Notes under the pieces: generated by a model
The model's input: the letters and a program-made list of their open reading frames with translations, nothing else
Told to the model about the DNA's origin: nothing
Database searches by the model: none
Translations under genes and position numbers: made by a program
Shown: positions 8,944 through 60,910 of the stretch, in pieces
Layout of the letters: each line of letters begins with the position of its first letter
Numbering within the stretch: position 1 is the first letter of the stretch
Virus record (IMG/VR): IMGVR_UViG_3300022200_000031
Coordinates: 1 to 64,000 of that record
Source of the DNA: a virus
Strand: one strand, 5' to 3'
Length of the DNA stretch: 64,000 nt

Positions 8944-8990
8944 ATATAACTCATACACAATAACAAATTTATTATAAGGTGAACTATTTA

Positions 8991-11279
8991 ATGAACGGGA
9001 TAACTGTCACTAAGCGTGATGGCCGCACTGAGCCATTCCAGCTCGATAAGATTCATAGAGTACTCTATTGGGCCACAGAAAATATCAACAATGTCTCAAT
9101 CTCAGAGATCGAACTCAAATCCAATATTCAGCTTTTTGACGGTATCCAAGGTGAACAGATTCACGAACTGTTGATCAAGTCCGCCGCCGATCTCATCTCC
9201 GAACATACTCCTAACTACCAGCATGTGGCTGCTCGTCTGGTCAACTATAAGATCCGTAAGGAAGTGTATGGTCAGCATGAGCCATGGCATCTAACCGACC
9301 TGATCAAAAAGAATGTAGAGCGTGGTGTGTATGACCCTGCTATTCTTGAATACTACACAGAAGAAGAGTTAGATGTACTCAACTCCCATATTAAGCACGA
9401 CCGTGATGATACATTCACCTATGTTGGTATGGAGCAGTTCCGTGGTAAGTATCTTGTTCAGAATCGCCTAAGCAAGCAGCTGTATGAAACTCCACAGATG
9501 CTGTTCATGATGGTAGCAGCAACTCTGTTCTCTCAGTATGACAAGGAAGAACGCCTCAAGTGGGTAAAGGACTTTTATGACGCTGTATCTAATTTCTACA
9601 TTTCTCTACCTACTCCTATTATGGCAGGCGTACGAACTCCTACGCGTCAGTTCAGCAGCTGCGTCCTCATTGAGTCAGGAGACTCACTCGATTCCATCAA
9701 CGCAACTGCAACGTCAATTGTTCGCTATATTTCTCGCAAGGCTGGCGTTGGTATTAGCGCTGGTGCTATTCGTGCAATCGATAGTCCAATTGGTGATGGT
9801 TCTGTTGTACACACAGGCCTAATCCCATTCCTAAAGTATTTCCAGTCAGCAGTTAAGTCTTGCTCGCAGGGTGGCGTTCGTGGTGGCGCCGCAACAATCT
9901 ACCTTCCTGCCTGGCATCTTGAATTTGAAGAATTAGTCGTGCTCAAGAATAATAAGGGCACCGATGAAACACGTATCCGCAATATGGATTACTGTTTCCA
10001 ATTTAATAAGGTACTGTATGAGCGACTGCTCAGCGGTGGTAACATCACTCTATTCTCTCCGAATGATGTTCCTGGACTTTATGATGCGTTTTACTCTGAC
10101 CAGGACGAATTCCGTCGCCTGTATGAGAAGTATGAGCGTAAGACCTCCATTCGTAAGAAGGTGATCCCAGCCATTGATCTGTTTACACAGTTTATTACTG
10201 AGCGTAAGGATACTGGCCGAATCTACCTACAGAATGTTGACCATGCAAATGAGCATGGTGCTTTTGATCCGAAGGTTGCTCCTATCCATCAGTCTAACCT
10301 CTGTTGTGAAATTGATCTACCAACCAAACCACTGAATGCATATGATGATCCAGAAGGTGAGATCTCATTGTGTACTCTTTCTGCAATCAACTGGGGACTT
10401 ATCAATGATCCAAGCGAATTTGAAAAATACTGCACACTTGCCGTACGTGCTCTCGACGCCCTACTCGATTACCAAGACTACCCTGTCGTGGCAGCAAAAC
10501 GGTCAACAGAGAACCGTCGTCCTCTCGGAGTTGGAATCATCAACCTTGCATACTTTTTGGCCAAGCGAGGACTTGCATACAATGAGCAAGCGCTTCCAGT
10601 TGTGGATGAATACGCCGAAGCGTGGTCCTATTACCTTATAAAGGCCTCAGCAGATCTTGCTCTCGAGAAGGGTGCATGTCTGAAGTCTGATGAGACCAAA
10701 TATGGTTTGGGCATCACTCCTAATATGACCTACAAGAAGGAAGTGGATGAATTGGTTCCACCAGCCAATCGTATGGACTGGACCTCTCTGCGCAACCAGA
10801 TGAACTTCTCTGGTATCCGTAACTCTACTCTGATGGCTCTGATGCCAGCAGAAACTTCTGCACAGATTTCCAATAGTACAAATGGTATTGAACCACCTCG
10901 TGCGTTAGTATCATACAAACAGTCTAAGGATGGTGTGATGGCACAGATTGTTCCTGGCTATCATCATCTGAAGAACAAGTATGATCTTCTATGGGATCAG
11001 AAGACCCCAGAAGGCTATCTAAAGATCTGTGCTGTACTACAGAAGTATATCGATCAGGGTATTTCCGTCAACACCTCTTACAATCCTGAGTTCTTTGAGG
11101 AAGGCAAAGTTCCTATGTCTCAGATGATTAAGGATATTGTGACCTTCTATAAGTACGGTGGCAAACAGCTGTATTACAACAACACCTATGATGGTGCTGG
11201 TGAATACAAAGAAGAAGATGATCCAATTATGCAAGCTGCTGAAGATGACGATAGTCATTGTGATAGCTGCACCATATAA
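8991..11279 (+). CDS. nrdA: Class Ia ribonucleoside-diphosphate reductase, alpha subunit
   Basis: A 762-residue enzyme that reduces NDPs to dNDPs for phage DNA synthesis. It is very close to enterobacterial NrdA over its whole length: N-terminal ATP-cone (VTKRDGRTEPFQLDKIHRVL), SLPTPIMAGVRTPTRQFSSCVL with the first redox Cys, the N-x-C-x-E triad in QSNLCCEI, LCTLSA with the partner Cys, and the LYYNNT tyrosine pair. The swinging-arm cysteines at the end are HCDSCTI (C-x-x-C, not the C-x4-C of E. coli). I prefer ATG 8991 over GTG 8979, because AAGGTG sits 9 nt before it. Uninterrupted by introns. Confidence 0.97.
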   Translation: MNGITVTKRDGRTEPFQLDKIHRVLYWATENINNVSISEIELKSNIQLFDGIQGEQIHELLIKSAADLISEHTPNYQHVAARLVNYKIRKEVYGQHEPWHLTDLIKKNVERGVYDPAILEYYTEEELDVLNSHIKHDRDDTFTYVGMEQFRGKYLVQNRLSKQLYETPQMLFMMVAATLFSQYDKEERLKWVKDFYDAVSNFYISLPTPIMAGVRTPTRQFSSCVLIESGDSLDSINATATSIVRYISRKAGVGISAGAIRAIDSPIGDGSVVHTGLIPFLKYFQSAVKSCSQGGVRGGAATIYLPAWHLEFEELVVLKNNKGTDETRIRNMDYCFQFNKVLYERLLSGGNITLFSPNDVPGLYDAFYSDQDEFRRLYEKYERKTSIRKKVIPAIDLFTQFITERKDTGRIYLQNVDHANEHGAFDPKVAPIHQSNLCCEIDLPTKPLNAYDDPEGEISLCTLSAINWGLINDPSEFEKYCTLAVRALDALLDYQDYPVVAAKRSTENRRPLGVGIINLAYFLAKRGLAYNEQALPVVDEYAEAWSYYLIKASADLALEKGACLKSDETKYGLGITPNMTYKKEVDELVPPANRMDWTSLRNQMNFSGIRNSTLMALMPAETSAQISNSTNGIEPPRALVSYKQSKDGVMAQIVPGYHHLKNKYDLLWDQKTPEGYLKICAVLQKYIDQGISVNTSYNPEFFEEGKVPMSQMIKDIVTFYKYGGKQLYYNNTYDGAGEYKEEDDPIMQAAEDDDSHCDSCTI

Positions 11280-11315
11280 TGTAGTGTAAAATATGGTGTG
11301 TAAGATTTAAAATAA

Positions 11316-11353
11316 TATAAATAGTCCATATAGGAGAATCATATGGACTATTT
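11316..11353 (+). promoter_or_regulatory. Late promoter overlapping RBS/start hairpin of the HNH gene
   Basis: TATAAATA (11316-11323) is an exact T4 late motif. A 13-bp perfect inverted repeat (AAATAGTCCATAT 11319-11331, ATATGGACTATTT 11341-11353) begins inside it; the 9-nt loop holds AGGAG and the right arm holds ATG 11343. nrdA read-through RNA would be silenced; late RNA starting near 11329 loses the left arm and is translatable. The same logic is known for I-TevI in T4. Confidence 0.8.
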
Positions 11354-11972
11354 TAAACACTATAATCTATTAATTGAAAGAGCTAGAACCAGACAATTGA
11401 ATTGTTATGTGGAAACGCATCATATCATGCCCAAGTGTATGGGTGGGACCAATGATAGTGACAACTTGGTTGATCTCACCCCTGAGGAACATTATGTTGC
11501 GCATCAACTTCTTGCTAAGATGTACCCTAATCAAACAAAATTGAGTTATGCTGCAGCATGTATGGGATCTATTAGAGCCAATAACAAGTTGTATGGTTGG
11601 TTGAGAATTAGAATTTCAGATAACATGAAACAAAACAACCCAAATGCTGGTGGTGAAGCTAGGAGACGTTATAGTAGTAAATATGGAGCTCCAAACAAGG
11701 GCTATGTGCACACAGCTGCAACCAAGAAACTCCTCAGTGAACAGAGAATGGGGTCCAAGAATCCCAACGTTAGTGGACAAGCTAGGAAAACAACAACTTA
11801 CTTAGTGTCGGTGGCCACTGGAGATGTTATGGTTTATGATAGTTTAAAAGAAGCAGAGCGTGTAGTAGGCGCAAATCACGCTAGCGTGTGGAATAATAGA
11901 AAGATGGGAAAGCCCTATAAGGGTTACTATTGGTACGTTGGTAGTGAGTATAATCCGGATGGAGAATTATAA
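11343..11972 (+). CDS. Free-standing HNH homing endonuclease
   Basis: A 209-residue protein. HHIMPKCMGGTNDSDNLVDLTPEEH (about 27-51) is the HNH core of phage group-I-type endonucleases. The C-terminal part (about 150-205: VSVATGDVMVYDSLKEAERVVG, NNRKMGKPYKGYYWYV) is a NUMOD-like DNA-recognition module with a helix-turn-helix. It sits between nrdA and nrdB, the site occupied by mobE-type endonucleases in T4 relatives, and does not interrupt a gene. Expression is probably late-only because of the start-codon hairpin. Confidence 0.88.
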   Translation: MDYFKHYNLLIERARTRQLNCYVETHHIMPKCMGGTNDSDNLVDLTPEEHYVAHQLLAKMYPNQTKLSYAAACMGSIRANNKLYGWLRIRISDNMKQNNPNAGGEARRRYSSKYGAPNKGYVHTAATKKLLSEQRMGSKNPNVSGQARKTTTYLVSVATGDVMVYDSLKEAERVVGANHASVWNNRKMGKPYKGYYWYVGSEYNPDGEL

Positions 11973-12481
11973 TGAGAAAATTATTTTTTATTTCACGCGA
12001 CAAAGAGTTGGCAATGATTCAGAAGTTGGCGTACGAAATTGATCGTACAGAAATCCATCCGGATCATACCTGCCTGTTGATGGTGTCACCCGACTACTCT
12101 GCAATTGCTGCTCAGATTCTGGCACACGAGCTGACCAAGGATCGTGATATGCTACACATCGAAGCGGTGCATGTACCATTCCCCGATGAAGATGATCGTT
12201 CATTCCTTGAGCGTTTTAGACGTGAATTCAGCACATATGGTAAAGAATTTAAAAACTTTGTACTTGTTGAAGCTGGAATCATTCGGGGGTATAATTGGCA
12301 GATGATCGTTGATGTTATGAGACAGCAAGGTGTCATGCCGGGTAACATCACTACTGTTGCTGTTTTTGAAAATGTTCATTCCATATATAAGTCAACATAT
12401 GTGGGTGAATACTATGATAATGAGACCCACGATCTGACGTATTGGTGGGAACGTCCTAATAAACATTGGGACAATTATTGA
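11972..12481 (+). CDS. Phosphoribosyltransferase-like protein in the nrd operon
   Basis: A 169-residue protein. The segment KNFVLVEAGIIRGYNWQMIVDVMRQQG (about 93-119), then ITTVAVFEN, has the strand-loop-helix-strand shape of the type I PRTase PRPP loop, but the usual D-D-x-x-x-T-G is replaced (E-A-x-x-x-R-G). A Trp-rich tail (TYWWERPNKHWD) follows. I infer a degenerate, possibly non-catalytic PRTase fold. It starts on the last base of the HNH stop and ends 9 nt before nrdB, so it travels with the reductase genes. Confidence 0.45.
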   Translation: MRKLFFISRDKELAMIQKLAYEIDRTEIHPDHTCLLMVSPDYSAIAAQILAHELTKDRDMLHIEAVHVPFPDEDDRSFLERFRREFSTYGKEFKNFVLVEAGIIRGYNWQMIVDVMRQQGVMPGNITTVAVFENVHSIYKSTYVGEYYDNETHDLTYWWERPNKHWDNY

Positions 12482-12490
12482 GGTTAAATA

Positions 12491-13630
12491 ATGTCTGTTT
12501 TTAAGCGTAAGGAAAAAAGCCATCTAGAATCAAAGATGTTCTTTGATGGTAGTGTTGATATCGCTCGGTATGATCATGTCAAGTATCCCAATCTGGATAA
12601 GTTGACTGATAAGATGCTTGGTTTCTTCTGGCGACCGGAAGAGATTGATATTGGTAAGGATAAGACCGACTTCTCCCGGTTGATGCCACATGAGCAGCAT
12701 ATCTTCACATCAAACCTTAAGCGTCAGATTCTGTTAGACTCTGTGCAGGGTAGAGCGCCTACAGAAGCGTTTCTACCCGCTGTATCCCTTCCAGAGCTTG
12801 AGCCACTGGTACAGACATGGGCGTTCATGGAAACGATTCATAGCCGCTCATACACGCATATCATCCGTAATATCTACGCAGATCCCTCTAAGGTGTTTGA
12901 TGATCTCATGAACATTGAAGAGATTGTTAACTGCGCAAAAGACATTAGTAAGTATTATGATGACTTCATTGAGTACAACAAGTACTATGATCTATTGGGT
13001 GAGGGACGCTTCCGCACAACAGATAAGGTGTCACAAGAGAAGCAGTATGTCACCATCGACAAGTATGAGTTGAAGAAGAAACTATGGCTTGCATTGAATA
13101 GCGTTAATGTGCTTGAGGGTGTTCGCTTCTATGTTTCATTTGCGTGCTCATGGGCATTTGCAGAATTGAAGAAGATGGAAGGTAATGCTAAGATCATTAA
13201 GTTCATTGCACGTGATGAGAATGTGCACTTAGCAATTACTCAGACTATCCTCAAAGCACTACCTAAAGATGATCCTGAGTTTGCAGAGATTGCAGAAGAG
13301 TGCCGTGATCAGGTAACAGAAATGTTTGTAGATGCTATCGATCAGGAGAAGAAGTGGGCAGATTACCTGTTTGCGGATGGATCCATGATTGGTCTTAATG
13401 CTAGACTACTGCACGACTACATAGAATGGATTGGAGCAAAGCGTATGAAGACATTAGGTTATACAGCGCCGTTCCACACATCACAAGCAAATCCACTACC
13501 ATGGACCGAACGATGGATTGGAGGGGGCAATGTTCAGGTTGCGCCTCAGGAGACAGAGATCAGTTCGTATGTTATTGGTGGTGTGAAACAAGACGTAAAC
13601 GAAGAAACATTTAAGGGGTTATCACTGTGA
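12491..13630 (+). CDS. nrdB: Class Ia ribonucleoside-diphosphate reductase, beta subunit
   Basis: A 379-residue diiron-tyrosyl radical subunit that partners NrdA. Y121 in HSRSYTHIIRNI is the radical tyrosine; D83, E114 and H117 and the later E/E/H set (VLEGVRFYVSFA, RDENVHL) supply the iron ligands. The C-terminus is acidic/hydrophobic (EETFKGLSL) for binding the alpha subunit. Length equals the enterobacterial protein (375-376). SD GAGGTTAA precedes ATG 12491. The stop overlaps the glutaredoxin start. Confidence 0.97.
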   Translation: MSVFKRKEKSHLESKMFFDGSVDIARYDHVKYPNLDKLTDKMLGFFWRPEEIDIGKDKTDFSRLMPHEQHIFTSNLKRQILLDSVQGRAPTEAFLPAVSLPELEPLVQTWAFMETIHSRSYTHIIRNIYADPSKVFDDLMNIEEIVNCAKDISKYYDDFIEYNKYYDLLGEGRFRTTDKVSQEKQYVTIDKYELKKKLWLALNSVNVLEGVRFYVSFACSWAFAELKKMEGNAKIIKFIARDENVHLAITQTILKALPKDDPEFAEIAEECRDQVTEMFVDAIDQEKKWADYLFADGSMIGLNARLLHDYIEWIGAKRMKTLGYTAPFHTSQANPLPWTERWIGGGNVQVAPQETEISSYVIGGVKQDVNEETFKGLSL

Positions 13631-20857: not shown

Positions 20858-20934
20858 GTCCCCGTAGCTCAACTGGATAGAGCACCGACCTTCTAAGTCG
20901 GTGGTTGCAAGTTCGAGTCTTGCCGGGGGCGCCA
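20858..20934 (+). tRNA. tRNA-Arg (UCU)
   Basis: Complete cloverleaf: acceptor GTCCCCG/CGGGGGC, D arm GCTC/GAGC, anticodon stem CCGAC/GTCGG with loop CTTCTAA (anticodon TCT), T arm GCAAG-TTCGAGT-CTTGC, encoded CCA. Reads AGA (and AGG). Confidence 0.97.
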
Positions 20935-20950
20935 TTATAAGTATATACTT

Positions 20951-21026
20951 GCCGGTTTAGCACAGTTGGTAGTGCAACTGCCTTGTAAGCAGTAGGTCCG
21001 CGGTTCGAGTCCGTGAACCGGCACCA
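20951..21026 (+). tRNA. tRNA-Thr (UGU)
   Basis: Acceptor GCCGGTT/AACCGGC, anticodon stem ACTGC/GCAGT with loop CTTGTAA (anticodon TGT), T arm CGCGG-TTCGAGT-CCGTG, encoded CCA. Reads ACA. Confidence 0.97.
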
Positions 21027-21103
21027 CGGGGATTAGCTCAGCCTGGTAGAGCATCTGGTTTGGGACCAGAGGGTCGTAGGTTCGAATCCTGCATCCCCGA
21101 CCA
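21027..21103 (+). tRNA. tRNA-Pro (UGG)
   Basis: Acceptor CGGGGAT/ATCCCCG, anticodon stem TCTGG/CCAGA with loop TTTGGGA (anticodon TGG), T arm with TTCGAAT, encoded CCA. It begins on the base after the CCA of tRNA-Thr. Reads CCA. Confidence 0.97.
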
Positions 21104-21108
21104 ATTCG

Positions 21109-21425
21109 ATCATCCGCGATTGGATGATAGGCAAGGGGCTCTAGCTGATCGGGGTTCCGAGCTGATGGTGAATCGACACCATAGTTGATCAGATATACCT
21201 ATGTTGGCTGTCGGCATAGGATGAATTCAAATCTCTTCGTTCCTTTAAGGCGAAACTGCGTGGAGATAGGGCAGCCCATTTTACAGAGCACATTATAACA
21301 ACTTTCGTGTGTTCTCTAAAGTGCGTTGGACTTGCTGGATAGGCATTAAGTTGTCGAAGGTGTGAAGCAGAATCTGATTCTGTGGACTGGTCTCTTTTGA
21401 GATTGCCTGAAACCAGCGCACTTTA
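21109..21425 (+). ncRNA. Candidate structured non-coding RNA
   Basis: No ORF of note, but nested perfect helices: ATCATCC/GGATGAT (21109/21122), CTGATC/GATCAG (21145/21187) enclosing ATGGTG/CACCAT (21165/21177), CCTATG/CATAGG (21198/21215), ATCTC-TTCG/CGAA...GAGAT (21230-21267), AGAGCACA/TGTGTTCT (21285/21308), and a 9-bp helix TAAAGTGCG/CGCACTTTA (21317-21325/21417-21425) that closes a domain with CAGAAT/ATTCTG, CTGG/CCAG and TCTC-TTTT-GAGA hairpins. It lies inside the tRNA cluster, as T4 stable RNAs C and D do. No known RNA family recognised. Confidence 0.5.
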
Positions 21426-21433
21426 TTATTAGT

Positions 21434-21509
21434 TACCTGTTTTTGGTGATGTCAGGTCTGTCGCCAGCAAGCACTATTAGCCACGATTCAGTTGCGTATG
21501 GAATAGTGC
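21434..21509 (+). ncRNA. Additional hairpins between the RNA candidate and tRNA-Gly
   Basis: ACCTG/CAGGT and an 8-bp GCACTATT/AATAGTGC pair (21471-21478/21502-21509). They may be the 3' part of the same precursor or processing signals for tRNA-Gly. The 86 bases between tRNA-Gly and tRNA-Trp (21624-21709) likewise hold only a short GCTCA/TGAGC hairpin and no gene. Confidence 0.35.
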
Positions 21510-21548
21510 CCAAGAGCGAGATGCAGATAAAAACCATTTTAGATTTTT

Positions 21549-21623
21549 GCGGAAGTAACTCAATGGTAGAGTTTCTGCCTTCCAAGCAGAATGTTGCGAG
21601 TTCGAGTCTCGTCTTCCGCTCCA
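21549..21623 (+). tRNA. tRNA-Gly (UCC)
   Basis: Acceptor GCGGAAG/CTTCCGC, anticodon stem TCTGC/GCAGA with loop CTTCCAA (anticodon TCC), T arm GCGAG-TTCGAGT-CTCGT, discriminator T, encoded CCA. Reads GGA. Confidence 0.96.
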
Positions 21624-21709
21624 CACAGTCCCGGAATGACTCTAAACTTGACCTGGTCGGAGCGAGCCCTGCATCCAGCTCAAGATGTAAAACTGAGCCC
21701 TTTAACAAT

Positions 21710-21784
21710 GTCGTGATAGTGTAATTGGCAGCACAATAGTCTCCAAAACTATTAGTTGAGGTTCGAATCCTTGTCGCGGCGCCA
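21710..21784 (+). tRNA. tRNA-Trp (CCA)
   Basis: Acceptor GTCGTGA/TCGCGGC (two G-U pairs), anticodon stem ATAGT/ACTAT with loop CTCCAAA (anticodon CCA), T loop TTCGAAT, encoded CCA. The T stem contains weak pairs but the fold is complete. Reads UGG. Confidence 0.88.
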
Positions 21785-28411: not shown

Positions 28412-30073
28412 TTATGGGGCTGTCATCATACTTTCGTAAGAAGGACCTGGGGCAGCCTTCTTTGCACCCCCACTTCTTACATTGACAGATCCCGTAGAGC
28501 TGCTGTTACTCACATTGTTGGTTGTTGATGGAGCATTGATAATCACTGGAGCTGATTTACTCTTCATGTTGGCATTAGCATCCTGTGCTGCATCCAACTG
28601 AGCACCTGTTTGATTTGGAATAGGTTGAGCATCATCACTATTGAACCATCCCTTAATAGTTTCCCAACCACTCTGAGGAACATTTGGTGCAGGAGAGGAC
28701 ATTCCTGTGTTGCTGGTATCGTTCATGTTGCTTTCAGAACCAGAACCACCTTCTGACATATCTGGTGCCAGACCAGCCCACTTCAGACCCTTGCGAACAG
28801 AAACCGGCAGAGACATATAGATGTTCTCCCAAGAGAAAGTTTCATCCATCCATGTCTGGAAATCATCCCACCAACCAAACAAGGCATCACCAAGTCCACC
28901 TGCCCAATCTTTGAGATCAGTCCACTGCTTCTTGAGATTCTCCCATGAGAATGTTTCAGCAAACCAATCAATTACACCATCCACTGTATCAAAGATACCT
29001 TGGATTAGGTCATTAATTAATTCCTCGAAGGAGAATGAATCAAGCCACTTCTCTGCATCCTTGAAACCCAGCTTACCGAGAACCCAGGAGATCAGGCTCT
29101 TACCAAGATCCATGATGCCACCAACAAGGTTACCAACCAAGCCACCGAAGAATGCTCCGAGCTTAGAAATGAATCCACCTTCTTTATTCCAGGCAGCAAT
29201 TGCACCCTGCACTGTGGCAATGATTACTGTGATAGGCCAAGCAATCTTACTTGCAAGTTTGCCAAAGAAACCAAACGCTTTTGAGAACCCAGCAAAGTAC
29301 TTGCTGATGCTGGCAGTCATCTTTGACATCTTGCCAACGGTGCCCGTCATCTTCTTGAAGATGTAGATTGTAGGGCGGAAGAATCTATACAATGAGTTCA
29401 TCCAACCCCTGAACATATTGATCCCCTTGAGGACCAGTTGACCAGCTTTTGATTTGCCAAGAGAAGAAAACATCTTACTGATGCTCGTTCCTAGAGACTT
29501 GAAACCACTCTTGACAAGAGAGAAAAAGTCCTTACCAAGACCTTTCAATGCCTTGCCTAGTTCAATCACAAATGTCTTGAGGAAGATATATCCAAGTCTG
29601 AATGATCTGGTAATGTATCCAAGATACTTGTTAGTCTTCATGGATGCTTTGAGAATACGGCTACCCATCTTCTCCATTGTTGTAATAGATTTAAGAGAGA
29701 ACGCTTTCCATCCCTTGTACCATCCTTTCAGACCACCCACAATAGTACCAAGAGTACCAGCAAGCATCAGGCCCCAGCCAGCAATACCAAAGCCTTCTTC
29801 AGGTTTGGCATCCCCACCTTTGTCTTTTGGTTTGAGATCATGTAAAGCATCCAACATCTTCTCATTGAAGATCTGTTGTTCACGAGTCGCTTCGAGCTTA
29901 GCTAATGCATCACCAGTGACAGCAATGATAAGGTTTTCAAACTTCTCTTCGACCATATCATGAAACATATCAAGATACTCAACAGCCAGGTTGCTGTTGG
30001 CGCGCATGATCCCAAGATTCTCATTTGCAATCTCAAGTTCAAGTGTTACATCTGCTAATGTTGCTGCTGCCAT
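28412..30073 (-). CDS. Tail tape measure / tail-length protein (gp29-like)
   Basis: A 553-residue protein read leftward. The N-terminus is coiled-coil (ENLGIMRANSNLAVEYLDMF). The middle (about 95-360) has long helical hydrophobic segments rich in Gly, Lys and Phe (GWGLMLAGTLGTIVGGLKGWYKGW), typical of tape measures that sit in the tube and enter the membrane. The C-terminus (from about 430) is Ser/Asn/Ala-rich and flexible. T4 gp29 has 590 residues. It follows the gp26/gp51 chaperone pair, the usual position. Confidence 0.75.
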   Translation of the reverse strand: MAAATLADVTLELEIANENLGIMRANSNLAVEYLDMFHDMVEEKFENLIIAVTGDALAKLEATREQQIFNEKMLDALHDLKPKDKGGDAKPEEGFGIAGWGLMLAGTLGTIVGGLKGWYKGWKAFSLKSITTMEKMGSRILKASMKTNKYLGYITRSFRLGYIFLKTFVIELGKALKGLGKDFFSLVKSGFKSLGTSISKMFSSLGKSKAGQLVLKGINMFRGWMNSLYRFFRPTIYIFKKMTGTVGKMSKMTASISKYFAGFSKAFGFFGKLASKIAWPITVIIATVQGAIAAWNKEGGFISKLGAFFGGLVGNLVGGIMDLGKSLISWVLGKLGFKDAEKWLDSFSFEELINDLIQGIFDTVDGVIDWFAETFSWENLKKQWTDLKDWAGGLGDALFGWWDDFQTWMDETFSWENIYMSLPVSVRKGLKWAGLAPDMSEGGSGSESNMNDTSNTGMSSPAPNVPQSGWETIKGWFNSDDAQPIPNQTGAQLDAAQDANANMKSKSAPVIINAPSTTNNVSNSSSTGSVNVRSGGAKKAAPGPSYESMMTAP

Positions 30074-30265
30074 TTAGTGTCTCTGCTTTGCTGCCTTCAT
30101 ACGTTCGTTTTCTGCCTTAATATGTTCCACGAGCATGGAAACATATATTTCCCTCTCCCATGGCATCATATTTTCCAATTCGGTTAAACTATACTGATGA
30201 TTCTGCATCATCTGAAAGTTCACCTTGTAGTGGTTTACGAGGTTATCGTGGGAGAGGCCTAGGAG
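30074..30265 (-). CDS. gp51: gp51-like segment, probably a -1 frameshift extension of gp26
   Basis: Sixty-three codons in the -1 frame after gp26: LLGLSHDNLVNHYKVNFQMM, YSLTELENMMPWEREIYVSM. The MPWEREIY pattern is that of cyanophage gp51 (hub assembly). No convincing independent start exists: the first ATG (30211) has no SD and would cut off the N-terminal part, while the open frame extends back into gp26. The slippery T-TTT-TTC at 30265-30271 joins the frames, so the product is likely a gp26-gp51 fusion, like lambda gpG/gpGT. Confidence 0.7.
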   Translation of the reverse strand, partial: LLGLSHDNLVNHYKVNFQMMQNHQYSLTELENMMPWEREIYVSMLVEHIKAENERMKAAKQRH

Positions 30266-30987
30266 AAAAAATTCTGTAGACCCTCTACATGACGCTCGTT
30301 GTGATGACCACACTTGTCACAATCAAATACAATATCAGTATTGATTGAAGGAACTTCATTTGCAAATCCTGACAGAGCAGCAAACTGCTGTGCATTCATT
30401 GACTCAATGAAATCCAGTAACTCTTTCTTGGTATGATCCTTTGCATACAAAGTTTCATCACCGTAAAAAATAACATCGATCGATGCAATAATGGTTTCAA
30501 ACAACTGGTCTACTCTACTAGCCTCACTATTTGTGTCTCTAGTATGCTTCATAGTATCCATTGCATCTGCAACCGTTGGATACTTCATCTGAATAGACAG
30601 GTTATCACTAACCTTAACCAGCAAGTCCTTTTTACCTTGCATCTTCGGAGCTTCGATTGCAGCCAGATTAACGGTCACATCATTAAGCTCTTCACACTTC
30701 TCACACTTAAAGCGAATGTCAGTGGTTTCACCAACACTCTTTGATCTTAGCTGTAAGAAAATATACTCAAGATCAAATGGTGTGATATTCTTTGCATTGA
30801 GAGCACCATCAGTACAGCTACCAATTGTGTCAACCAATGCTTTTGTAATATTAACTTCGTCCTGTGACTCCAATGCAATCATCAGGACCTTTTCTTCTTT
30901 AACCAAGTATGGTCTAAATTGTACCACCTCACCACTCGATGGTACAGTCATACTATACTTCGGTGATGCTAAATTAGGCAATGCCAT
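30259..30987 (-). CDS. gp26: Baseplate hub/tape-measure chaperone gp26
   Basis: A 242-residue protein. MALPNLASPKYSMTVPSSGEVVQFRPYLVKEEKVLM is the gp26 signature in T4-like phages. Two zinc-ribbon-like Cys pairs (CEKCEELN about 93-100; CDKCGHHN near 224-231). SD AAGGAGTG upstream. It ends NFFS-stop just beyond a T6C slippery run, after which the -1 frame continues in gp51. Function inferred as tape-measure chaperone/hub assembly. Confidence 0.82.
   Translation of the reverse strand: MALPNLASPKYSMTVPSSGEVVQFRPYLVKEEKVLMIALESQDEVNITKALVDTIGSCTDGALNAKNITPFDLEYIFLQLRSKSVGETTDIRFKCEKCEELNDVTVNLAAIEAPKMQGKKDLLVKVSDNLSIQMKYPTVADAMDTMKHTRDTNSEASRVDQLFETIIASIDVIFYGDETLYAKDHTKKELLDFIESMNAQQFAALSGFANEVPSINTDIVFDCDKCGHHNERHVEGLQNFFS
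30265..30271 (-). promoter_or_regulatory. Slippery heptamer T TTT TTC (programmed -1 frameshift site)
   Basis: On the minus strand the last sense codons of gp26 are AAT TTT TTC TCC then TAG. T-TTT-TTC is a canonical X-XXY-YYZ slippery site in the correct frame. A -1 slip bypasses the stop six bases later and enters the gp51 frame. Confidence 0.7.
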
Positions 30988-53630: not shown

Positions 53631-53841
53631 TGATAAAGACAAAGCGAATGCATCGTTGTTTAATGCTGCTGCCCATCTAACAGAGGCAGCAAAGTATATG
53701 TCTGACATGGATAAGGGGATCTCACTAAAGATCTTTGCCATGGCAGATAAGATCCTTTCCATTATTGATGCCCCCCAACCAAAGTTATCAAATAAAGAAC
53801 TGGATGATATTCTGGAGGAGATTCTAAATGCAGAAGACTAG
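53623..53841 (+). CDS. Small helical protein between two maturases
   Basis: A 72-residue protein, overlapping both radical-SAM genes (8 and 14 nt). NASLFNAAAHLTEAAKYMSDMDKGISLKIFAMADKILSIIDA and an acidic end (KELDDILEEILNAED). No Cys, so not an obvious thioether precursor. It could be a carrier/recognition protein (RRE-like role) or a regulator; no homology recognised. Confidence 0.5.
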   Translation: MLDDKDKANASLFNAAAHLTEAAKYMSDMDKGISLKIFAMADKILSIIDAPQPKLSNKELDDILEEILNAED

Positions 53842-54964
53842 AGGACCGCTGGTAATTGAGCTGACTACCAGTGCATTATGTGATCTGAATTGCACATATT
53901 GCTTTGAGGGTGAGAAGGTTAACAAGCAGAGGCTTGAGGACTTTGACACACTGTATGCTAGGATTGATGAACTAACTAGTGACCCATGGTTTAAAGAAAA
54001 CTACAATGGATTCACATTCTCATTTTGGGGCGGTGAACCGACACTTAACCACGAGTATATTGTCAAAGTAATCAATCACTTCAAGGACCATCCTGCAGTA
54101 GGTCAGTTTCATATCTACACCAATGGTTTCAACTTCAAGAATATGAGTCGAATTATTGATAATGTAGACACAACCAAACTGCATATTCAAGTTTCATATG
54201 ACGGTCAAATTACTAATGATATTTTCAGATTGACGAACAAAGGAACCTCCACAACTGAACAAGTACTAAATACCTTTGACAAATTGGCCAAAAGAGGTAT
54301 TGATCTTGCAATAAAGAGTACACTACCCACTACTTCTATTTTTAGTCTGTATGATACATGGCTAGAATTTGAAGGTTTGGTTAATAAATATAAGGATTAC
54401 CCAAACGTAAAAATTAACTTTGCGCCAACGATTGAGTATGCTATGGGACACACACCATTTGGTGGGGAAACGGATCATGCAGTTGCAAAGTTTGAAAAGC
54501 AGATGAAAAAGATCGCCAAAAAGGAGATCGAATTCTACAAGGAGCATGGAAGGTTCTTGTGCTCATGGTTTGGTAGCTCTGATAGTAAGACAAACTGTAC
54601 TGCTGGAGCTAGTATGATGGCAGTAGATGTGGACGGTGGAGTGTATGCTTGCCATGGTGCTCTCTACTCTCCTCAGAAGGAAGACATGAAATCAGCAACG
54701 ATTTTCGATAATGATTTCACTGTTAAGGTAAAAGACTTTGCGGACAAGCATGTTCCTGCAAGGCATAGGATTAATGACATCTGTAAGGGATGTGTTGCAA
54801 CATACTGTGCTGTATGCCCTGTTGCGGTATATGACGCAAGTAAGAAGGTTGACCATCTAGATAGATGGACAGATAGATGTGTGAATGGGTTGTGTAAGTT
54901 CTATAAGGCGTTTGGGCGATTAGATAGAGCTGTACAGCACCATATAAACAACTTGGAGAAGTGA
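53828..54964 (+). CDS. Radical SAM/SPASM maturase-like enzyme 2
   Basis: A 378-residue protein. LTTSALC18-DLN-C22-TY-C25-FEGEK, FSFWGGEPTLN, HIQVSYDGQ. SPASM region: NCTAGASMMAVDVDGGVYACHGAL, then ICKGCVATYCAVCPVAV and DRCVNGLCKFY, closely like anaerobic sulfatase-maturating enzymes (anSME; Cys/Ser to formylglycine) and peptide maturases. Directly precedes, by 1 nt, the Cys-rich fibre-like gene, its likeliest substrate. Confidence 0.9.
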   Translation: MQKTRGPLVIELTTSALCDLNCTYCFEGEKVNKQRLEDFDTLYARIDELTSDPWFKENYNGFTFSFWGGEPTLNHEYIVKVINHFKDHPAVGQFHIYTNGFNFKNMSRIIDNVDTTKLHIQVSYDGQITNDIFRLTNKGTSTTEQVLNTFDKLAKRGIDLAIKSTLPTTSIFSLYDTWLEFEGLVNKYKDYPNVKINFAPTIEYAMGHTPFGGETDHAVAKFEKQMKKIAKKEIEFYKEHGRFLCSWFGSSDSKTNCTAGASMMAVDVDGGVYACHGALYSPQKEDMKSATIFDNDFTVKVKDFADKHVPARHRINDICKGCVATYCAVCPVAVYDASKKVDHLDRWTDRCVNGLCKFYKAFGRLDRAVQHHINNLEK

Positions 54965-54965
54965 T

Positions 54966-55652
54966 ATGACAGTAGGTGTAGTTGACGCTGGTGATAATTG
55001 TACAGCAGCACATTGTATCAATCATGGTACAGGTACCACCACGTGTGTTGAACACCGCAGTACATGCTCAACCAACCGTGCATTGACATTCTCTGACTTT
55101 GCTCAGGGTGGCAACATTACTGCTACCCAGGTAGAGGAAATGAGAGTCAAGATTCGTGATGAGTTGGCTAGATACAACCTTCATGCTAACTACAACTACA
55201 CATTGTACCAGCCAACAGCTATTGGTGCTGGTGGTATTGTGGATGACACTCACTATAACAACCTGAATGATATGATCCGTCAGGCCTACGGTTCCGATAT
55301 CAATAAGGCTGCGGGTCAGCTGATTGATGATGCAGATTGGGATAACTTGATCTCATACTATAATGTGGTTCGCCAAAACTGCATCTGTAACACCGACTGC
55401 TCATGTAATAATGTGTGTGCGTGCCACAATGATTGTGATTGTAACTACAGCGATGAAAGACTGAAGGAGAATATTAAGTATCTTGGTCTGGTAAGTGATC
55501 TGAAAGTGTACAGCTTCAATTATATCTGGAACAAAGCAGAAGAGATGATTGGTGTGATGGCTCAGGATCTCATTGGTACCAAGTATGAGGATGCTCTTCG
55601 TAAAGACATTAACGGATACTACATGGTAGATTATAGTAGGTTGCCACTCTAA
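54966..55652 (+). CDS. Cys-array tail protein with S74 chaperone domain (candidate modified substrate)
   Basis: A 228-residue protein. The N-terminus has a Cys/His cluster (C12, H16, C17, H20, C27, H30, C34). The middle is helical with YNYTLYQPTAIG. Residues 139-159 form a strict array C-x-C-x-x-x repeated: Cys at 139, 141, 145, 147, 151, 153, 157, 159. Then YSDERLKENIKYLG...MIGVMAQDL is a peptidase S74 intramolecular chaperone of phage fibres/tips. Placed between SPASM enzymes and other modification genes; metal binding or Cys modification is inferred. Confidence 0.75.
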   Translation: MTVGVVDAGDNCTAAHCINHGTGTTTCVEHRSTCSTNRALTFSDFAQGGNITATQVEEMRVKIRDELARYNLHANYNYTLYQPTAIGAGGIVDDTHYNNLNDMIRQAYGSDINKAAGQLIDDADWDNLISYYNVVRQNCICNTDCSCNNVCACHNDCDCNYSDERLKENIKYLGLVSDLKVYSFNYIWNKAEEMIGVMAQDLIGTKYEDALRKDINGYYMVDYSRLPL

Positions 55653-56398
55653 TGGAAAAGACAATTACTAAAATCAATGAGGTTCTGTCTGAAAAGTTTG
55701 ACAGAGGTATCTCAATCAGAGTCACCAACACTCTCAGTATTCCTCCAATGGATGATGATAGTCAGTTCTCCATTAAATTTAAGTTTACTGTAAATGGTGC
55801 TGGGTACCGTGGATGGTATCTATCCAACACCGATCGTGCTGAGATAAATGAATTTGTGTATGACACCCTGCACGATGATGTGTTTGTTCTGCCTAATCTA
55901 GTGGACTTTGATGGTAAGTGTTATGCCTTGGTTGGTGATGGTATGATTACTGTTGAGCGTGAAACTAAGGTTCTTATGACCAACGATGTAGCGCCATCCT
56001 CAATTGTAGAGCTGCATGAAATGCTTGAGGACATTGATGTGTCGTCTATTGATATGTCGGATGTATATGACAGACAGGTTGGTTACAACTTCAGTGATGA
56101 AGAATGTATGCTGATGTATACCAACATCCCTGGTAATGTTCTCAGTGATGGTAGCGGTCGTTATACACTAATTGACTTAGATGTATTTAATATTCTCCCA
56201 ACGCGTTTCAAATATTGTCCTGCATTCTCTCTTCTATGTGATAGGATTGGTTTTAAGCAGTCTCGCCTTGAGGGATTCTGCGATAAGTATAATCTGGACC
56301 CTGAGATGTTCCTTTCCAACTACAAGCAGTTTCTTCAATTTGAGAAGGACATGGGTTCTGATGATGAAAAAATGATGGAGATTTTAACGGAGAAATAA
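55652..56398 (+). CDS. Hypothetical protein of the modification cluster
   Basis: A 248-residue protein, acidic. N-terminal beta half (QFSIKFKFTVNGAGYRGWYLSN; VLPNLVDFDGKCYALVGDGMITVERETKV), helical end (CDRIGFKQSRLEGFCDKYNLDPEMFLSNYKQFLQFEKDM). It starts on the last base of the previous gene's stop. No family recognised; possible fibre-assembly or virion protein. Confidence 0.5.
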   Translation: MEKTITKINEVLSEKFDRGISIRVTNTLSIPPMDDDSQFSIKFKFTVNGAGYRGWYLSNTDRAEINEFVYDTLHDDVFVLPNLVDFDGKCYALVGDGMITVERETKVLMTNDVAPSSIVELHEMLEDIDVSSIDMSDVYDRQVGYNFSDEECMLMYTNIPGNVLSDGSGRYTLIDLDVFNILPTRFKYCPAFSLLCDRIGFKQSRLEGFCDKYNLDPEMFLSNYKQFLQFEKDMGSDDEKMMEILTEK

Positions 56399-56400
56399 TT

Positions 56401-57003
56401 ATGATGGTATATGATTTAGCTATTGTGGAGGACCATGGTCACCACTATAGAGTGATTGGTACAACAAAGAATACATTAGACCGTATGGCCGGTGAAGACT
56501 ATATTAAAGTGTCATCGATGGCGTATGAAATGATTTGGCCTGCATTGCGAGATGGTAAGGAAGTAAGACTTCCTAAGGTTCTCCATACCAATGAAGTACT
56601 TCCCGGTGAAGTACAAATTATCGAACATAGTCCTGATGATGCAGATGCAGCACGCACTGCAGCACTGATCAAGGTACGCTCGCTTGTTGTCCCAGAGATG
56701 ACTAAAGAGTCAGGATTCACTCTTTATAACTTCATGATGATGAATAATGAGTTGGCAAGTGAAGGATACTTCATTACTAATAATAATCGTGAAGAAAAGT
56801 ACATTGAGATCATCGAAACAGGCAATGAAAGGCTAATTGAAACCCTTGAGATGTACCTAGAAGCTAAGGATACCCTTGACCGGGCGGCCTCAATGAAAGT
56901 TCGGTTGGATAAGTTCCGTAAAGAAATCGGCCGAATGGATGCTGTAGATGATATTAAGACGGCTACCGACAATTTCTTGGCTACATTCTATACCTCAAAG
57001 TAA
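56401..57003 (+). CDS. Hypothetical protein of the modification cluster
   Basis: A 200-residue protein. N-terminal alpha/beta part (MVYDLAIVEDHGHHYRVIGTTKNTLDRM; GEVQIIEHSPDDADAARTAALIKVRSLVVPEM), C-terminal long helices (LETLEMYLEAKDTLDRAASMKVRLDKFRKEI). No Cys. Function unknown. Two nucleotides after the preceding stop, so the same transcript. Confidence 0.5.
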   Translation: MMVYDLAIVEDHGHHYRVIGTTKNTLDRMAGEDYIKVSSMAYEMIWPALRDGKEVRLPKVLHTNEVLPGEVQIIEHSPDDADAARTAALIKVRSLVVPEMTKESGFTLYNFMMMNNELASEGYFITNNNREEKYIEIIETGNERLIETLEMYLEAKDTLDRAASMKVRLDKFRKEIGRMDAVDDIKTATDNFLATFYTSK

Positions 57004-57008
57004 TATGA

Positions 57009-57824
57009 ATGTCCGCTGTTGTATATCACTCAAACGATCATAAGAAGATCAATGGTACTCTCTTCTATTGTTTTGAGTACTATGTACTGCTAAAAAGATA
57101 CATTCCAGGCCTGCAGTATATCCTTCTCAATACTTCCGATGAAGATCTTCAATGGATGAAATCTATCTTTATTGAGAAGTATAACTTTGATCATGCTTAT
57201 CTTAATGACATCACTAACCTAACAAGGCTTACAGATTTTGTTAGGTTGTCGGTTGATAATGTTCTAATCCTTGATATTCATACTTATAGTAGAGTAAAGG
57301 ACTTTCTCGGAAAGGCTCGATCAGTTCGTGTGTATAGTAATGAGGAGCACAACTACCTGAACGCTAAACCCCATCATGTGTTCTATGGGTTCTACGACTA
57401 TCAGACATTCAATAAAAAAACTAGAATCAAATTATATGCTGACATACACAAGAGGTTTCCTAATAAAAGAAACAAAGTGTTTGTTACGTCATTAAATGCA
57501 GACAATGATTATATTGTCAATCAGTTAGGATTAGATCCATCGAAGGTATTTGTAAAAAATCTAAACAGTCACAATGAGAATATGTATGAACAGGTTGGTG
57601 AGATGATCTACTGGCATAGTTCACATACAGATACAAATAACCGAGCAATAGTGGAGGCATACATCCATGATATTCCTCTGACCATACACTTCAATGGACA
57701 CTATCATGATAGCATCTATGAGAGATCTAACACCATTGCTAATGGTGGTTTGCAGGAAATGTTTCTTGATCAGTCTGATATACTAATACAGGACTTCATT
57801 AATGATTGTACAAATACCAAGTAA
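57009..57824 (+). CDS. Glycosyltransferase-like protein, paralog A
   Basis: A 271-residue protein. The order of boxes (GTLFYCFEYYVLLKRYIPGLQYILL, VLILDIHTY, GFYDYQTFNKKTRIKLYADIHKRF, KVFVTSLNADNDYIVNQLG, RAIVEAYIHDIPLTIHFNGHYHDS) resembles GT-B type transferases, the last like the E-A-x-x-x-G-x-P nucleotide-sugar end with the motif weakened. Homologous in layout to the next gene. Acceptor unknown. Confidence 0.5.
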   Translation: MSAVVYHSNDHKKINGTLFYCFEYYVLLKRYIPGLQYILLNTSDEDLQWMKSIFIEKYNFDHAYLNDITNLTRLTDFVRLSVDNVLILDIHTYSRVKDFLGKARSVRVYSNEEHNYLNAKPHHVFYGFYDYQTFNKKTRIKLYADIHKRFPNKRNKVFVTSLNADNDYIVNQLGLDPSKVFVKNLNSHNENMYEQVGEMIYWHSSHTDTNNRAIVEAYIHDIPLTIHFNGHYHDSIYERSNTIANGGLQEMFLDQSDILIQDFINDCTNTK

Positions 57825-58701
57825 GTATGAGCTCTGCCTAACCTACTCTTGGGGTCCTATCGATCAGGGTATGTGTGGACACATATTTGAGTGTATTGAA
57901 TACTACTTCATTCTGAAAGAACATTACAGTGTGTGTATATTCATTCCTGAGCCACTCAGCAAGAAGTTCATAGAGGATACTGTTAGGGACAAGTATGATT
58001 TCACAGAAGAGGAAACAACGGACCTTTTCGATAATACTATCTTTGGCAATCATCCTAAGATTCTGAAGGGAAGTAATGTACTGTTAACGGATGCTGGGTT
58101 TGGAAAGATGACTAACAGACATCTATTGTTTGATAACATCATGGCTTTTCCATGCGCCGATATGTCATTCAAACAAATGGAAGGTATTACTGTATTCCAG
58201 GATGACCGCATGTATGGTACGGATGCCAAATGCACAACCCATCACTATGTAAAAAAGATTCTACTAGATCGTTATAAGACAATTGGTGATAGTGTTATTG
58301 ATACTAACCTTGTATATGCTACTAAGAATGCAAGAGGGCTTGATGAGTCCATCTACACAGAGTTGGAGCAGTACCCAGGAAACTTTCTGCTGTTGACTAA
58401 TACAGAGATTAAGGGTATACTATCCGATCGTTATACACAGGAAGAGATGCCTGTGAAGAATCTATTTGAGAAGTTTAGTACATACATCTATACTCCTGTA
58501 GGAAAGAAGTATGATTGCAGTCCTAGATTCTTGGTAGAATGCAAGCACTATGGTAAAAATGTTATATTCCATAACATTGACTATTGGGATGTTGATCATG
58601 GTTTGAAGTGGAGAGTCTATGACATCGAGTACGATTATGATTCACTACTTCTTAGATCGGATGATAGTATCATAGAATTAATAGGAGACATCATTGGATA
58701 A
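57802..58701 (+). CDS. Glycosyltransferase-like protein, paralog B
   Basis: A 299-residue protein. GHIFECIEYYFILKEHYSVCIFIPEPLSKKFIED parallels the previous protein; KGSNVLLTDAGFG, NLVYATKNARGL and SPRFLVECKHYGKNVIFHNIDYWDVDHGLKWR (E-x-x-x-x-G-x-x-V) continue the GT-B-like scheme. Overlaps its paralog by 23 nt. Tandem duplication with divergence is likely; enzymatic role inferred. Confidence 0.5.
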   Translation: MIVQIPSKYELCLTYSWGPIDQGMCGHIFECIEYYFILKEHYSVCIFIPEPLSKKFIEDTVRDKYDFTEEETTDLFDNTIFGNHPKILKGSNVLLTDAGFGKMTNRHLLFDNIMAFPCADMSFKQMEGITVFQDDRMYGTDAKCTTHHYVKKILLDRYKTIGDSVIDTNLVYATKNARGLDESIYTELEQYPGNFLLLTNTEIKGILSDRYTQEEMPVKNLFEKFSTYIYTPVGKKYDCSPRFLVECKHYGKNVIFHNIDYWDVDHGLKWRVYDIEYDYDSLLLRSDDSIIELIGDIIG

Positions 58702-59296
58702 TTATTGTCTCACTGTAACATATAAATGTCAGTGGCATTGCCCATACTGCATTACTGATACACACTCTAAGAGTATAGAGTATGATCAGGTACTAGACAA
58801 CATTAAAAGGATACCCGATCGTGCTCATGTCTCCCTTAGTGGCGGAGAACCTGGTATGTTACCAACAGGAAAGATCATAGAGGTTATTAATAGACTGCGT
58901 GAGAAGCAATGTGTGGTACAGGTTAATAGCAATGGGTTGATTTTTAAAAGACCCGCTATTGTTGATATGGTGGACTTCATCTTCTACCATTGCAGTGAGA
59001 ACCTGGATATTGATGATGAGGTTGTAAAGGATTACCCTGATAAGACTCAGTACATGGTAGTTGTAACAGACAACAACATTGATAAACTCAGATCATTTTT
59101 GGATAAGCATAATGATATTCATATATCAATTTATGCAGCTAAAGAGGTCCCTGTCAATGGTAAGGTTGGCGAACATCTCAGTAAAAAGAACGCTATCAGA
59201 CTCGTGCGTGAGTTTAAGGATTACATCAAACCAGATGAGGTTCCACACATCCTAAATTTCAATGAGTATACTTTGCAGACAGAACACATTAAATGA
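58694..59296 (+). CDS. Minimal radical SAM enzyme 3
   Basis: A 200-residue protein with TTG start 58694 (AGGAG 6 nt ahead). C12-QWH-C16-PY-C19 and HVSLSGGEPG form the radical-SAM core, then VQVNSNGLIF; no C-terminal auxiliary-cluster cysteines. Such short enzymes usually need partner proteins. Overlaps both neighbours. Confidence 0.82.
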   Translation: MDNYCLTVTYKCQWHCPYCITDTHSKSIEYDQVLDNIKRIPDRAHVSLSGGEPGMLPTGKIIEVINRLREKQCVVQVNSNGLIFKRPAIVDMVDFIFYHCSENLDIDDEVVKDYPDKTQYMVVVTDNNIDKLRSFLDKHNDIHISIYAAKEVPVNGKVGEHLSKKNAIRLVREFKDYIKPDEVPHILNFNEYTLQTEHIK

Positions 59297-60297
59297 TTAA
59301 TAATTATACATTTCCTTTAATTGATAAAGATGAACCTATATGTCAGCGCGCTAAACTTGACACAGGGACTTTCTGTAATTATGAGTGTTCTTTTTGTTAC
59401 TATATTGATCGCCTGCATGAGAAGACAGATCTGGATGTGGTAAAACAGCGTGTGGATTATATCTATGAATGTGGTATCCGCGAAGTAGATCTTAGTGGGG
59501 GTGAATCTTCTGTCCGTACTGATTGGTTTGAGCTGCTGGACTATTGTAAGTCAAAGGAAATGTCAGTCAGTACGGTGACTAACGGATACAAGTTTGCTGA
59601 CCATGATTTTATGAAAAAGTCAAAGGAGCATGGATTGCAGGAGATTCTGTTTAGTGTACATGGGCCCAATAATGACATCCATGATCTTGTAGTTGGAAGA
59701 AAAGGAGCATTTAAGCGAATCATTAAAGCAATTGAGAATGCCCATGATCTAGGAATACTGGTTCGTATCAATTATGTTGTTAATCAACATAGCTACAGTC
59801 TAACAGATGAGTTTGTGTGCATGGTTGATCAGGTGAAGCCATATGAACTGAACTTTCTCACACTAAACTTCTTTGGTTCCGCTAACGAGTATCTACCATA
59901 CAAACTGTCTACTACTCATATCAAACACTGCATTGATATTGTTGACGTTCCTATTATTAATGTAAGGTATGTACCATATTGCTATATGGAAGGGTACGAG
60001 AAGTATGTCTGCAACACGTTCCAGCATATCTATGACAGATACGATTGGAATATGGCAGTGTATGATCAAAGAATAGATCCGGAAGTGTATAAAAAAGATC
60101 CTCTGGATGCATTATATAAGCAAGCGCAGGAAGACCGTAAGCGCATGTACTATAAACCAGAACAATGCAAGGGATGTAAGCATCTCCTAATATGTGATGG
60201 GTTGGAGAATGTAGTTCATGATGATGTAATGCCAACAGAAGGACCAGTGGTGAAGGAGATCAATCACTACAGGAAGGAATACTATGCCAAAGTATAG
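59293..60297 (+). CDS. Radical SAM enzyme 4
   Basis: A 334-residue protein. GTFC28-NYE-C32-SF-C35-YYID, VDLSGGESSVR, SVSTVTNGYKF, EILFSVHGPN. The C-terminus holds PYCYMEGYEKYVCNTF and EQCKGCKHLLICDG, a SPASM/twitch-like Cys set for an auxiliary cluster. Overall like MoaA/PqqE-type peptide or sugar-nucleotide modifiers. ATGA-type overlap with the previous gene. Confidence 0.87.
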   Translation: MINNYTFPLIDKDEPICQRAKLDTGTFCNYECSFCYYIDRLHEKTDLDVVKQRVDYIYECGIREVDLSGGESSVRTDWFELLDYCKSKEMSVSTVTNGYKFADHDFMKKSKEHGLQEILFSVHGPNNDIHDLVVGRKGAFKRIIKAIENAHDLGILVRINYVVNQHSYSLTDEFVCMVDQVKPYELNFLTLNFFGSANEYLPYKLSTTHIKHCIDIVDVPIINVRYVPYCYMEGYEKYVCNTFQHIYDRYDWNMAVYDQRIDPEVYKKDPLDALYKQAQEDRKRMYYKPEQCKGCKHLLICDGLENVVHDDVMPTEGPVVKEINHYRKEYYAKV

Positions 60298-60910
60298 TAT
60301 TCTAATTCCCACTCATAATAGACCTGAACTGTTTCAGAGATGTATTGCCAGTGTACAGAGAGGTATGCTTGGTGCTGACTACGAGATTATAGTTAATAAT
60401 GATTCACGAGATATTGAGGAAGTAGAAAGATATAACATTAAGTACTACTACATGCGCAATGATAATCTTGGTATGATATACAAGTTTCTATTTGATAGAG
60501 CAAACGGTGAGTATGTGTACTACATGGAAGATGATGATATTATGGATCCAAACTTCTATGAGCGCATTAAGTTATTCAACGAGGATATTATGTTTGGCAA
60601 CTATGTTCCTTTTGAATGGAATAAGTCATTCATTGAGTATATGAGATCAAGACCACAATCATCAAAGGAAGATTTCCTGGAAACATTTGATCCACACCAT
60701 TTCCAACTGTGCCAGATTATGTTTCGGAAATCTGCATTGGCAGACGCTGATTTTCCTACCGACAACAACCTACAGAATGATTTCCTTTTATTTGAGAGAC
60801 TGCAGGGTTCGTTTAGAGTAGTAAACAACTTCTTCTATAAACAAACAATTGATGGTGGTGATAATATTAGCTTCAGCTACCTCAATAAGGATCCAAGATG
60901 GACTTCATAA
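60284..60910 (+). CDS. Glycosyltransferase family 2
   Basis: A 208-residue GT-A enzyme. YSILIPTHNRPELFQRCIASVQ is the nucleotide-binding start, IIVNNDSRD and YVYYMEDDDIMDP (D-x-D metal motif), and a DNNLQNDFLLFERL-type C-terminal acidic helix. It lacks membrane segments, so it probably glycosylates a soluble acceptor, possibly a virion protein or a nucleotide-linked sugar. Overlaps the adjacent radical-SAM genes. Confidence 0.88.
   Translation: MPKYSILIPTHNRPELFQRCIASVQRGMLGADYEIIVNNDSRDIEEVERYNIKYYYMRNDNLGMIYKFLFDRANGEYVYYMEDDDIMDPNFYERIKLFNEDIMFGNYVPFEWNKSFIEYMRSRPQSSKEDFLETFDPHHFQLCQIMFRKSALADADFPTDNNLQNDFLLFERLQGSFRVVNNFFYKQTIDGGDNISFSYLNKDPRWTS

Follow-up and report, generated by a model that had tools for sequence, protein, structure and literature searches.

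The 3' end of gene 26 and its -1 frame

The window, meaning the whole stretch of 64,000 nucleotides that was analysed, comes from a marine T4-like virus (IMG/VR record IMGVR_UViG_3300022200_000031, positions 1 to 64,000). The following features lie on its minus strand:

30259..30987, minus strand: gene 26, the short tail assembly chaperone form (TAC-N), 242 aa; PF12322 E 1e-56, phrog_150 E 2e-59
30281..30286, minus strand: Shine-Dalgarno-like AGAGGG, probable frameshift stimulator, ~9 nt upstream of the heptamer; anti-SD energy -6.0 kcal/mol
30265..30271, minus strand: slippery heptamer T TTT TTC; its zero-frame codon phase is X XXY YYZ
30259..30261, minus strand: zero-frame stop TAG, with one sense codon between heptamer and stop
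30222..30243, minus strand: weak hairpin, 21 nt downstream of the heptamer, MFE -5.7 kcal/mol; role doubtful in this phage
30074..30265, minus strand: -1 frame C-terminal domain (TAC-C, 'gp51' in the annotation of relatives), 63 codons and a stop; phrog_634 E 1e-28
30074..30987, minus strand: predicted fusion protein (TAC-NC), 304 aa via -1 slippage; conceptual-fusion profile compared with T4 gp51
28412..30073, minus strand: probable tape measure gene, 553 aa, its ATG abutting the -1 frame stop; phrog_27688 E 0.013

A profile search with the gene 26 product gave a PF12322 match of 192.5 bits (cut-off 24.5), and its best match among the phage records searched has 39% identity. On the minus strand the gene ends ...AAT TTT TTC TCC TAG (30273..30259). 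Read from the heptamer onward, the -1 frame encodes FF LLGLSHDNLVNHYKV..., and its stop, 63 codons beyond FF, lies at 30076..30074. The initial annotation, made from the letters alone, had described this gene end, the heptamer and the open -1 frame, and its description is exact. It had also called the -1 frame gp51-like, which is confirmed by the match to phrog_634, a family named 'baseplate hub assembly catalyst'. The gp26 family phrog_150 matches both window ORFs (profile residues 5-232 with gp26 and 224-279 with the -1 frame). The predicted junction peptide of a fusion in this phage is HVEGLQNFFLLGLSHDNLVNHYK.

The site had further been placed just upstream of the tape measure gene, and a 553-aa ORF does start at 30073. 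The identification of 28412-30073 as that gene is of moderate strength. phrog_27688 is the family of a 568-aa protein of phiN3, which also matches tape-measure families at ~4e-5, and a single BLASTP comparison of the window ORF with the phiN3 protein gave 8e-8. Elsewhere the window contains five tRNA genes (Arg, Thr, Pro, Gly, Trp; 20858-21784) and a homing endonuclease gene (11343-11972) between the genes of the large and small ribonucleotide reductase subunits (8979-13630). Within 10 kb (53828-63622) lie four radical SAM genes that exceed the Pfam cut-off, along with a fifth, weak one.

Conservation of the heptamer

Searches of phage genomes with tblastn gave 733 records for gp26 at E 1e-5; for the 65-aa -1 segment, 589 phage records matched at E 1e-2. 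Among the matches listed, alignments of the -1 segment start at the heptamer's own FF. A profile-based reading of 274 loci yielded 285 gp26-domain ORFs, of which two partial and five truncated ones were dropped and 278 kept; a KVP40 region that does not contain gene 26 was excluded from this survey. T TTT TTN is present in the same phase in 253 of the 278. The other 25 comprise 12 gene 26 and 9 gene 51 ORFs from Tevenvirinae (the gene 51 ORFs carrying the C domain in the same frame), 2 from Ackermannviridae, and one each from Vibrio K393 and Vibrio phiTY18. Outside Tevenvirinae the heptamer is therefore kept in 253 of 257 complete gene-26 ends. A gp51-type domain follows in the -1 frame of 251 of the 253 heptamer loci; the remaining two (L225, L270) are near contig ends.

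Dereplication at 85% over 300 nt left 89 representative loci, and every one of them has the six T's in identical codon phase, with a T-ending previous codon and TTT as the first slip codon. Elsewhere in the same genes TTT accounts for 71% of Phe codons, and C-ending codons for at least a quarter of Asn and Asp codons. Given the amino acids, the third-position choices at the heptamer have a joint log10 P of -30.7 over the 89 loci, a value that ignores shared descent. The second slip codon is TTC in 56 loci, TTT in 25, TTA in 6 and TTG in 2 (Phe 81, Leu 8). Because this codon switches between Phe and Leu, the amino acid varies while the T's stay. The alignment columns with an entropy of 0 are precisely those of the six T's, and the flanking values are 1.33-1.40. 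The stop follows the heptamer after no more than one sense codon in 82 representatives, and past the junction the entropy by -1 codon position is 1.07/0.75/1.50, a coding pattern in the -1 frame. Both checks on homologues that the initial annotation had proposed, conservation across the junction and retention of the heptamer, thus hold; the first is seen in the alignments of relatives and in T4 gp51 (see below).

For comparison, other ORFs of at least 100 aa were called in the 89 representative records, mechanically, so that many of these 466 are not genes. Over the last five codons, none contains a TTTTTT heptamer in frame, and 10 contain any X XXY YYZ. The plus strand of the window, which bears most genes, has no TTTTTTC; the minus strand has 8.

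Homopolymers are prone to errors, and a sequencing or assembly indel could have split one in-frame gene. Such an artefact is effectively refuted, since 253 loci share the arrangement, and they come from independent assemblies as well as named phages. The homopolymer also raises the possibility of transcriptional slippage, which would produce mixed mRNA with no ribosomal shift, and runs of at least seven T's, found in 25 of the 89 representatives, would favour it. In the other 64, however, six T's are followed by another base, and a six-T run is short for polymerase slippage. The codon phase, constant in all 89, is needed for tRNA re-pairing and not for polymerase slippage, and the Shine-Dalgarno-like excess described below acts on ribosomes. 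Because of the constant phase and the run length, transcriptional slippage is disfavoured and appears very improbable.

Start codons in the -1 frame

The C-terminal domain could instead be a separate protein, produced by termination-reinitiation or from its own start, with the T run incidental. Annotation often treats it so: a separate gp51 CDS is given in 11 of 16 annotated heptamer records (5 have no gp51 CDS, and none has a joined CDS). In 30 of the 89 representatives the heptamer is kept and a -1-frame ATG occurs within 12 codons of it; 28 of 31 downstream -1-frame ATGs sit at the stop or 2 nt after it. Vibrio K393, which has no heptamer, has a TAATG overlap start. These observations favour a separate C domain.

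The window itself argues against it. The heptamer and the 12 codons that follow it contain no -1-frame ATG, GTG or TTG, and a Met first appears in the translated -1 segment ~20 residues beyond the slip, past the conserved stretch, in agreement with the earlier claim that the N-terminal part precedes the first ATG. Counting from the upstream stop, the only candidate is a single GTG 42 nt upstream; no Shine-Dalgarno sequence was seen before it by eye, and the absence of an SD-backed start, also claimed initially, is upheld. L001, the closest relative, has a closed -1 frame at about the position of this GTG. Across the representatives, 35 of 89 lack any ATG/GTG/TTG between the upstream stop and 12 codons past the heptamer, and 17 of the 89 have their -1 frame closed no more than 5 nt before the heptamer. 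Loci with a nearby ATG keep the heptamer all the same, and in P-SSM2-like loci that ATG lies within a predicted hairpin. A separate C domain with an incidental T run is accordingly judged improbable, though less so than transcriptional slippage, and a -1 frameshift is the preferred reading. The two features named initially as speaking against a frameshift, an independent start and a missing slippery run, do occur among relatives, but neither is present in the window. An independent start for the -1 ORF was rejected for the window and is kept as a possible addition in the 30 representatives with a nearby ATG.

Putative stimulatory elements

Pairing with the anti-Shine-Dalgarno sequence upstream of the heptamer has a mean energy of -6.07 kcal/mol in the 89 representatives, compared with -4.72 kcal/mol in synonymous shuffles, and 0 of 500 shuffles reach the observed mean. 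The mean at 147 other gene-26 positions is -1.20 kcal/mol. A control at the corresponding site of 11 unique gene-26 ends from Tevenvirinae has a mean of -4.64, similar to the shuffles; the Mann-Whitney p is 0.011, from few and related sequences. The Shine-Dalgarno-like element is stronger than codon choice predicts, which marks it as a putative upstream stimulator.

Downstream of the heptamer the window RNA has a shuffle z of -0.11 over 60 nt and -1.8 over 90 nt, with no convincing hairpin. Across 87 representatives the downstream RNA folds more stably than shuffled versions, with a mean z of -1.64 and -1.86, compared with -0.3 in a control stretch. RNAalifold did not separate real from shuffled input: it found no common downstream structure in an ungapped alignment and none in column-shuffled controls. 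By eye, P-SSM2-like loci (L096, L216 and similar) have a strong predicted hairpin ~5 nt after the heptamer, and the ATG annotated as their gp51 start is in its 5' arm. A group near the window has a hairpin ~21 nt after the heptamer, too distant for a classic stimulator. The downstream hairpins look lineage-specific.

Loci without the canonical heptamer

None of 17 Ackermannviridae loci (2 in the survey and 15 fetched later) has the canonical heptamer, and a gp51-like domain is found in the -1 frame of their gene 26 (L276-L290, L089:3250-3320, L102). The stretch GAR ATT TTC ATT TAA TTT TTG AAA TTG ATT TA is identical in all 15 contigs L276-L290, and the junction sequence is GATTTTCATTTAA. Just upstream of this stretch, L276, L282 and L283 have a closed -1 frame. 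T7 has a non-canonical frameshift site, and by analogy the Ackermannviridae site is possibly a T7-like non-canonical slip site; an ATT restart is the other possibility. Vibrio K393 also keeps the -1 layout, and a scan seeded with its gp26 found no relatives. Because Ackermannviridae and K393 retain the layout with no canonical heptamer, the layout does not always depend on it.

Both gp26 and gp51 of T4 belong to PF12322. T4 gp51 matches the gp26 family profile across nearly its whole length. When 72 unique conceptual fusions were combined into a profile, T4 gp51 aligned with it across the junction and showed no gap there. T4 gp26 aligns with the same profile as far as FFEL. The initial label 'gp51' needs refining: the domain is present in the -1 frame, but not as a separate gene 51 of the T4 type. 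The T4 counterpart of the whole fusion is gp51, and that of the short form is gp26.

Copy number was sampled by a PF12322 search of 31 records. All 19 heptamer records (18 phages, phiN3 being represented twice) have one copy, as do 3 Ackermannviridae or K393 records. All 9 Tevenvirinae records have at least two matches: 8 have two, and one has three, including two pieces of a broken gp51. The sampled Tevenvirinae have no heptamer and possess a second full-length gene. From this pattern, loss of the heptamer accompanies gain of a second gene in the samples, Ackermannviridae and K393 excepted. In Vibrio phage phiTY18 (L104:1803-3145) a short chaperone ORF stands in tandem before a full-length long-form one (TAATAATG junction); a large ORF, probably the tape measure gene, comes next. 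The sequence of this tandem pair indicates duplication in place of frameshifting. In one T4-like record (L114:3001-3750) the gp51 gene is broken by a frame change that could be a sequencing error.

Predicted structure

The AlphaFold2 model of window gp26 has a pLDDT of 90. In a VIA run, which re-scores Foldseek's own candidates, residues 1-85 matched the HK97 tail assembly chaperone 2ob9 with Z 7.4, rank 2 of 998 chains and below Z 8. Rank 1 was the uncharacterised 3fgx (Z 8.3, first ~90 residues), and rank 3 had Z 5.3. Foldseek itself gave nothing at E <=0.001 against the PDB (2ob9 E 0.33), and a PDB sequence search with the gp26 profile returned one chance-level match (E 0.83). Residues 91-237 have a weak zinc-ribbon-like match in VIA. 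The model of a T4-type gp51 (L110, pLDDT 82) has a helix at 196-203, about at the junction, followed by a helical C domain. Its best 50 matches listed from a viral structure library are mostly gp26, gp51 and unnamed phage proteins, with no named lambda-type chaperone among them.

Proposed mechanism

A programmed -1 frameshift on gene 26 very probably gives this virus two sizes of chaperone. The initial annotation had proposed that the slippage device of lambda and P2 operates in this T4-like phage; heptamer conservation, fusion homology and the copy pattern support that proposal. Several observations count against it: the window has no convincing downstream hairpin, the HK97 fold match is of limited strength, Ackermannviridae and K393 have the layout but no canonical heptamer, and an ATG lies nearby in 30 of the 89 representatives. 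From the sequence we infer the slip, its efficiency, the action of the stimulator and tape-measure binding, as follows. Gene 26 would be the tail assembly chaperone gene of a T4-superfamily phage, and the majority of ribosomes would terminate at TAG, leaving the 242-aa short form. The upstream AGAGGG would pair with 16S rRNA and delay a minority of ribosomes, which would slip by -1 on T TTT TTC, both Phe tRNAs re-pairing with UUU. These ribosomes would then read 63 further codons to complete the 304-aa long form, whose C-terminal domain may recruit or fold the tape measure protein from the adjoining gene.

This assigns a probable mechanism to a gene pair that most records label as a separate 'baseplate hub assembly catalyst' or omit. 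The Shine-Dalgarno-like element would be a concrete tuning knob, open to testing. More speculatively, and with somewhat more doubt than confidence, the T4-superfamily chaperone gene may be a natural experiment in setting a protein ratio. The SD-assisted frameshift looks ancestral and would have been replaced more than once by duplication (26 and 51 on opposite strands in Tevenvirinae, in tandem in phiTY18). A non-canonical site around GATTTTC may serve this purpose in Ackermannviridae, and a restart ATG of P-SSM2-like and KVP40-like phages may add a third product.

Comparison with known systems

In lambda (gpG/gpGT) and P2 (E/E') a single gene undergoes -1 slippage near its 3' end, ahead of the tape measure gene. 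The locus described here has the same one-gene layout, ahead of a probable tape measure gene. The slippery sequence of lambda differs from T TTT TTC. In the -1 frameshift of E. coli dnaX, a Shine-Dalgarno-like element ~10 nt upstream is combined with the heptamer A AAA AAG and a strong downstream hairpin. The upstream element is shared with the present case, whereas dnaX differs in its A AAA AAG heptamer and its strong hairpin. T4 has counterparts of both forms, but its gp26 and gp51 are encoded by two separate genes on opposite strands, with no heptamer. Frameshifting is reportedly conserved in several T4-like groups, a result attributed to Vladimirov and colleagues.

As cited in the PRFect paper (PMC10885494), Vladimirov, Gautam & Davidson (2022, Virology 566:9-15) describe tail assembly chaperone genes in T4-like phages, some of which have a short gene and a fused long gene instead of a frameshift. 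Poly-T slippery sequences in the TAC-N genes of T4-like phages are credited to the same study in PMC12846349. The chaperones concerned, as far as these citing texts describe them, belong to the same gene family (gp26/gp51) as the one studied here. Listings and the opening parts of abstracts of non-subscription articles yielded no paper on the cyanophage-type junction or its Shine-Dalgarno-like element. In Vandenendeviridae (Pseudomonas phage Adele), according to the portion of PMC12846349 that treats it, a conserved -1 site with a T run is likewise found at the 3' end of TAC-N; the motif there is GTTTTT and the virus family is another one. The frameshifted chaperone device is already described in long-tailed bacterial viruses, and this phage is very probably a new case of it.
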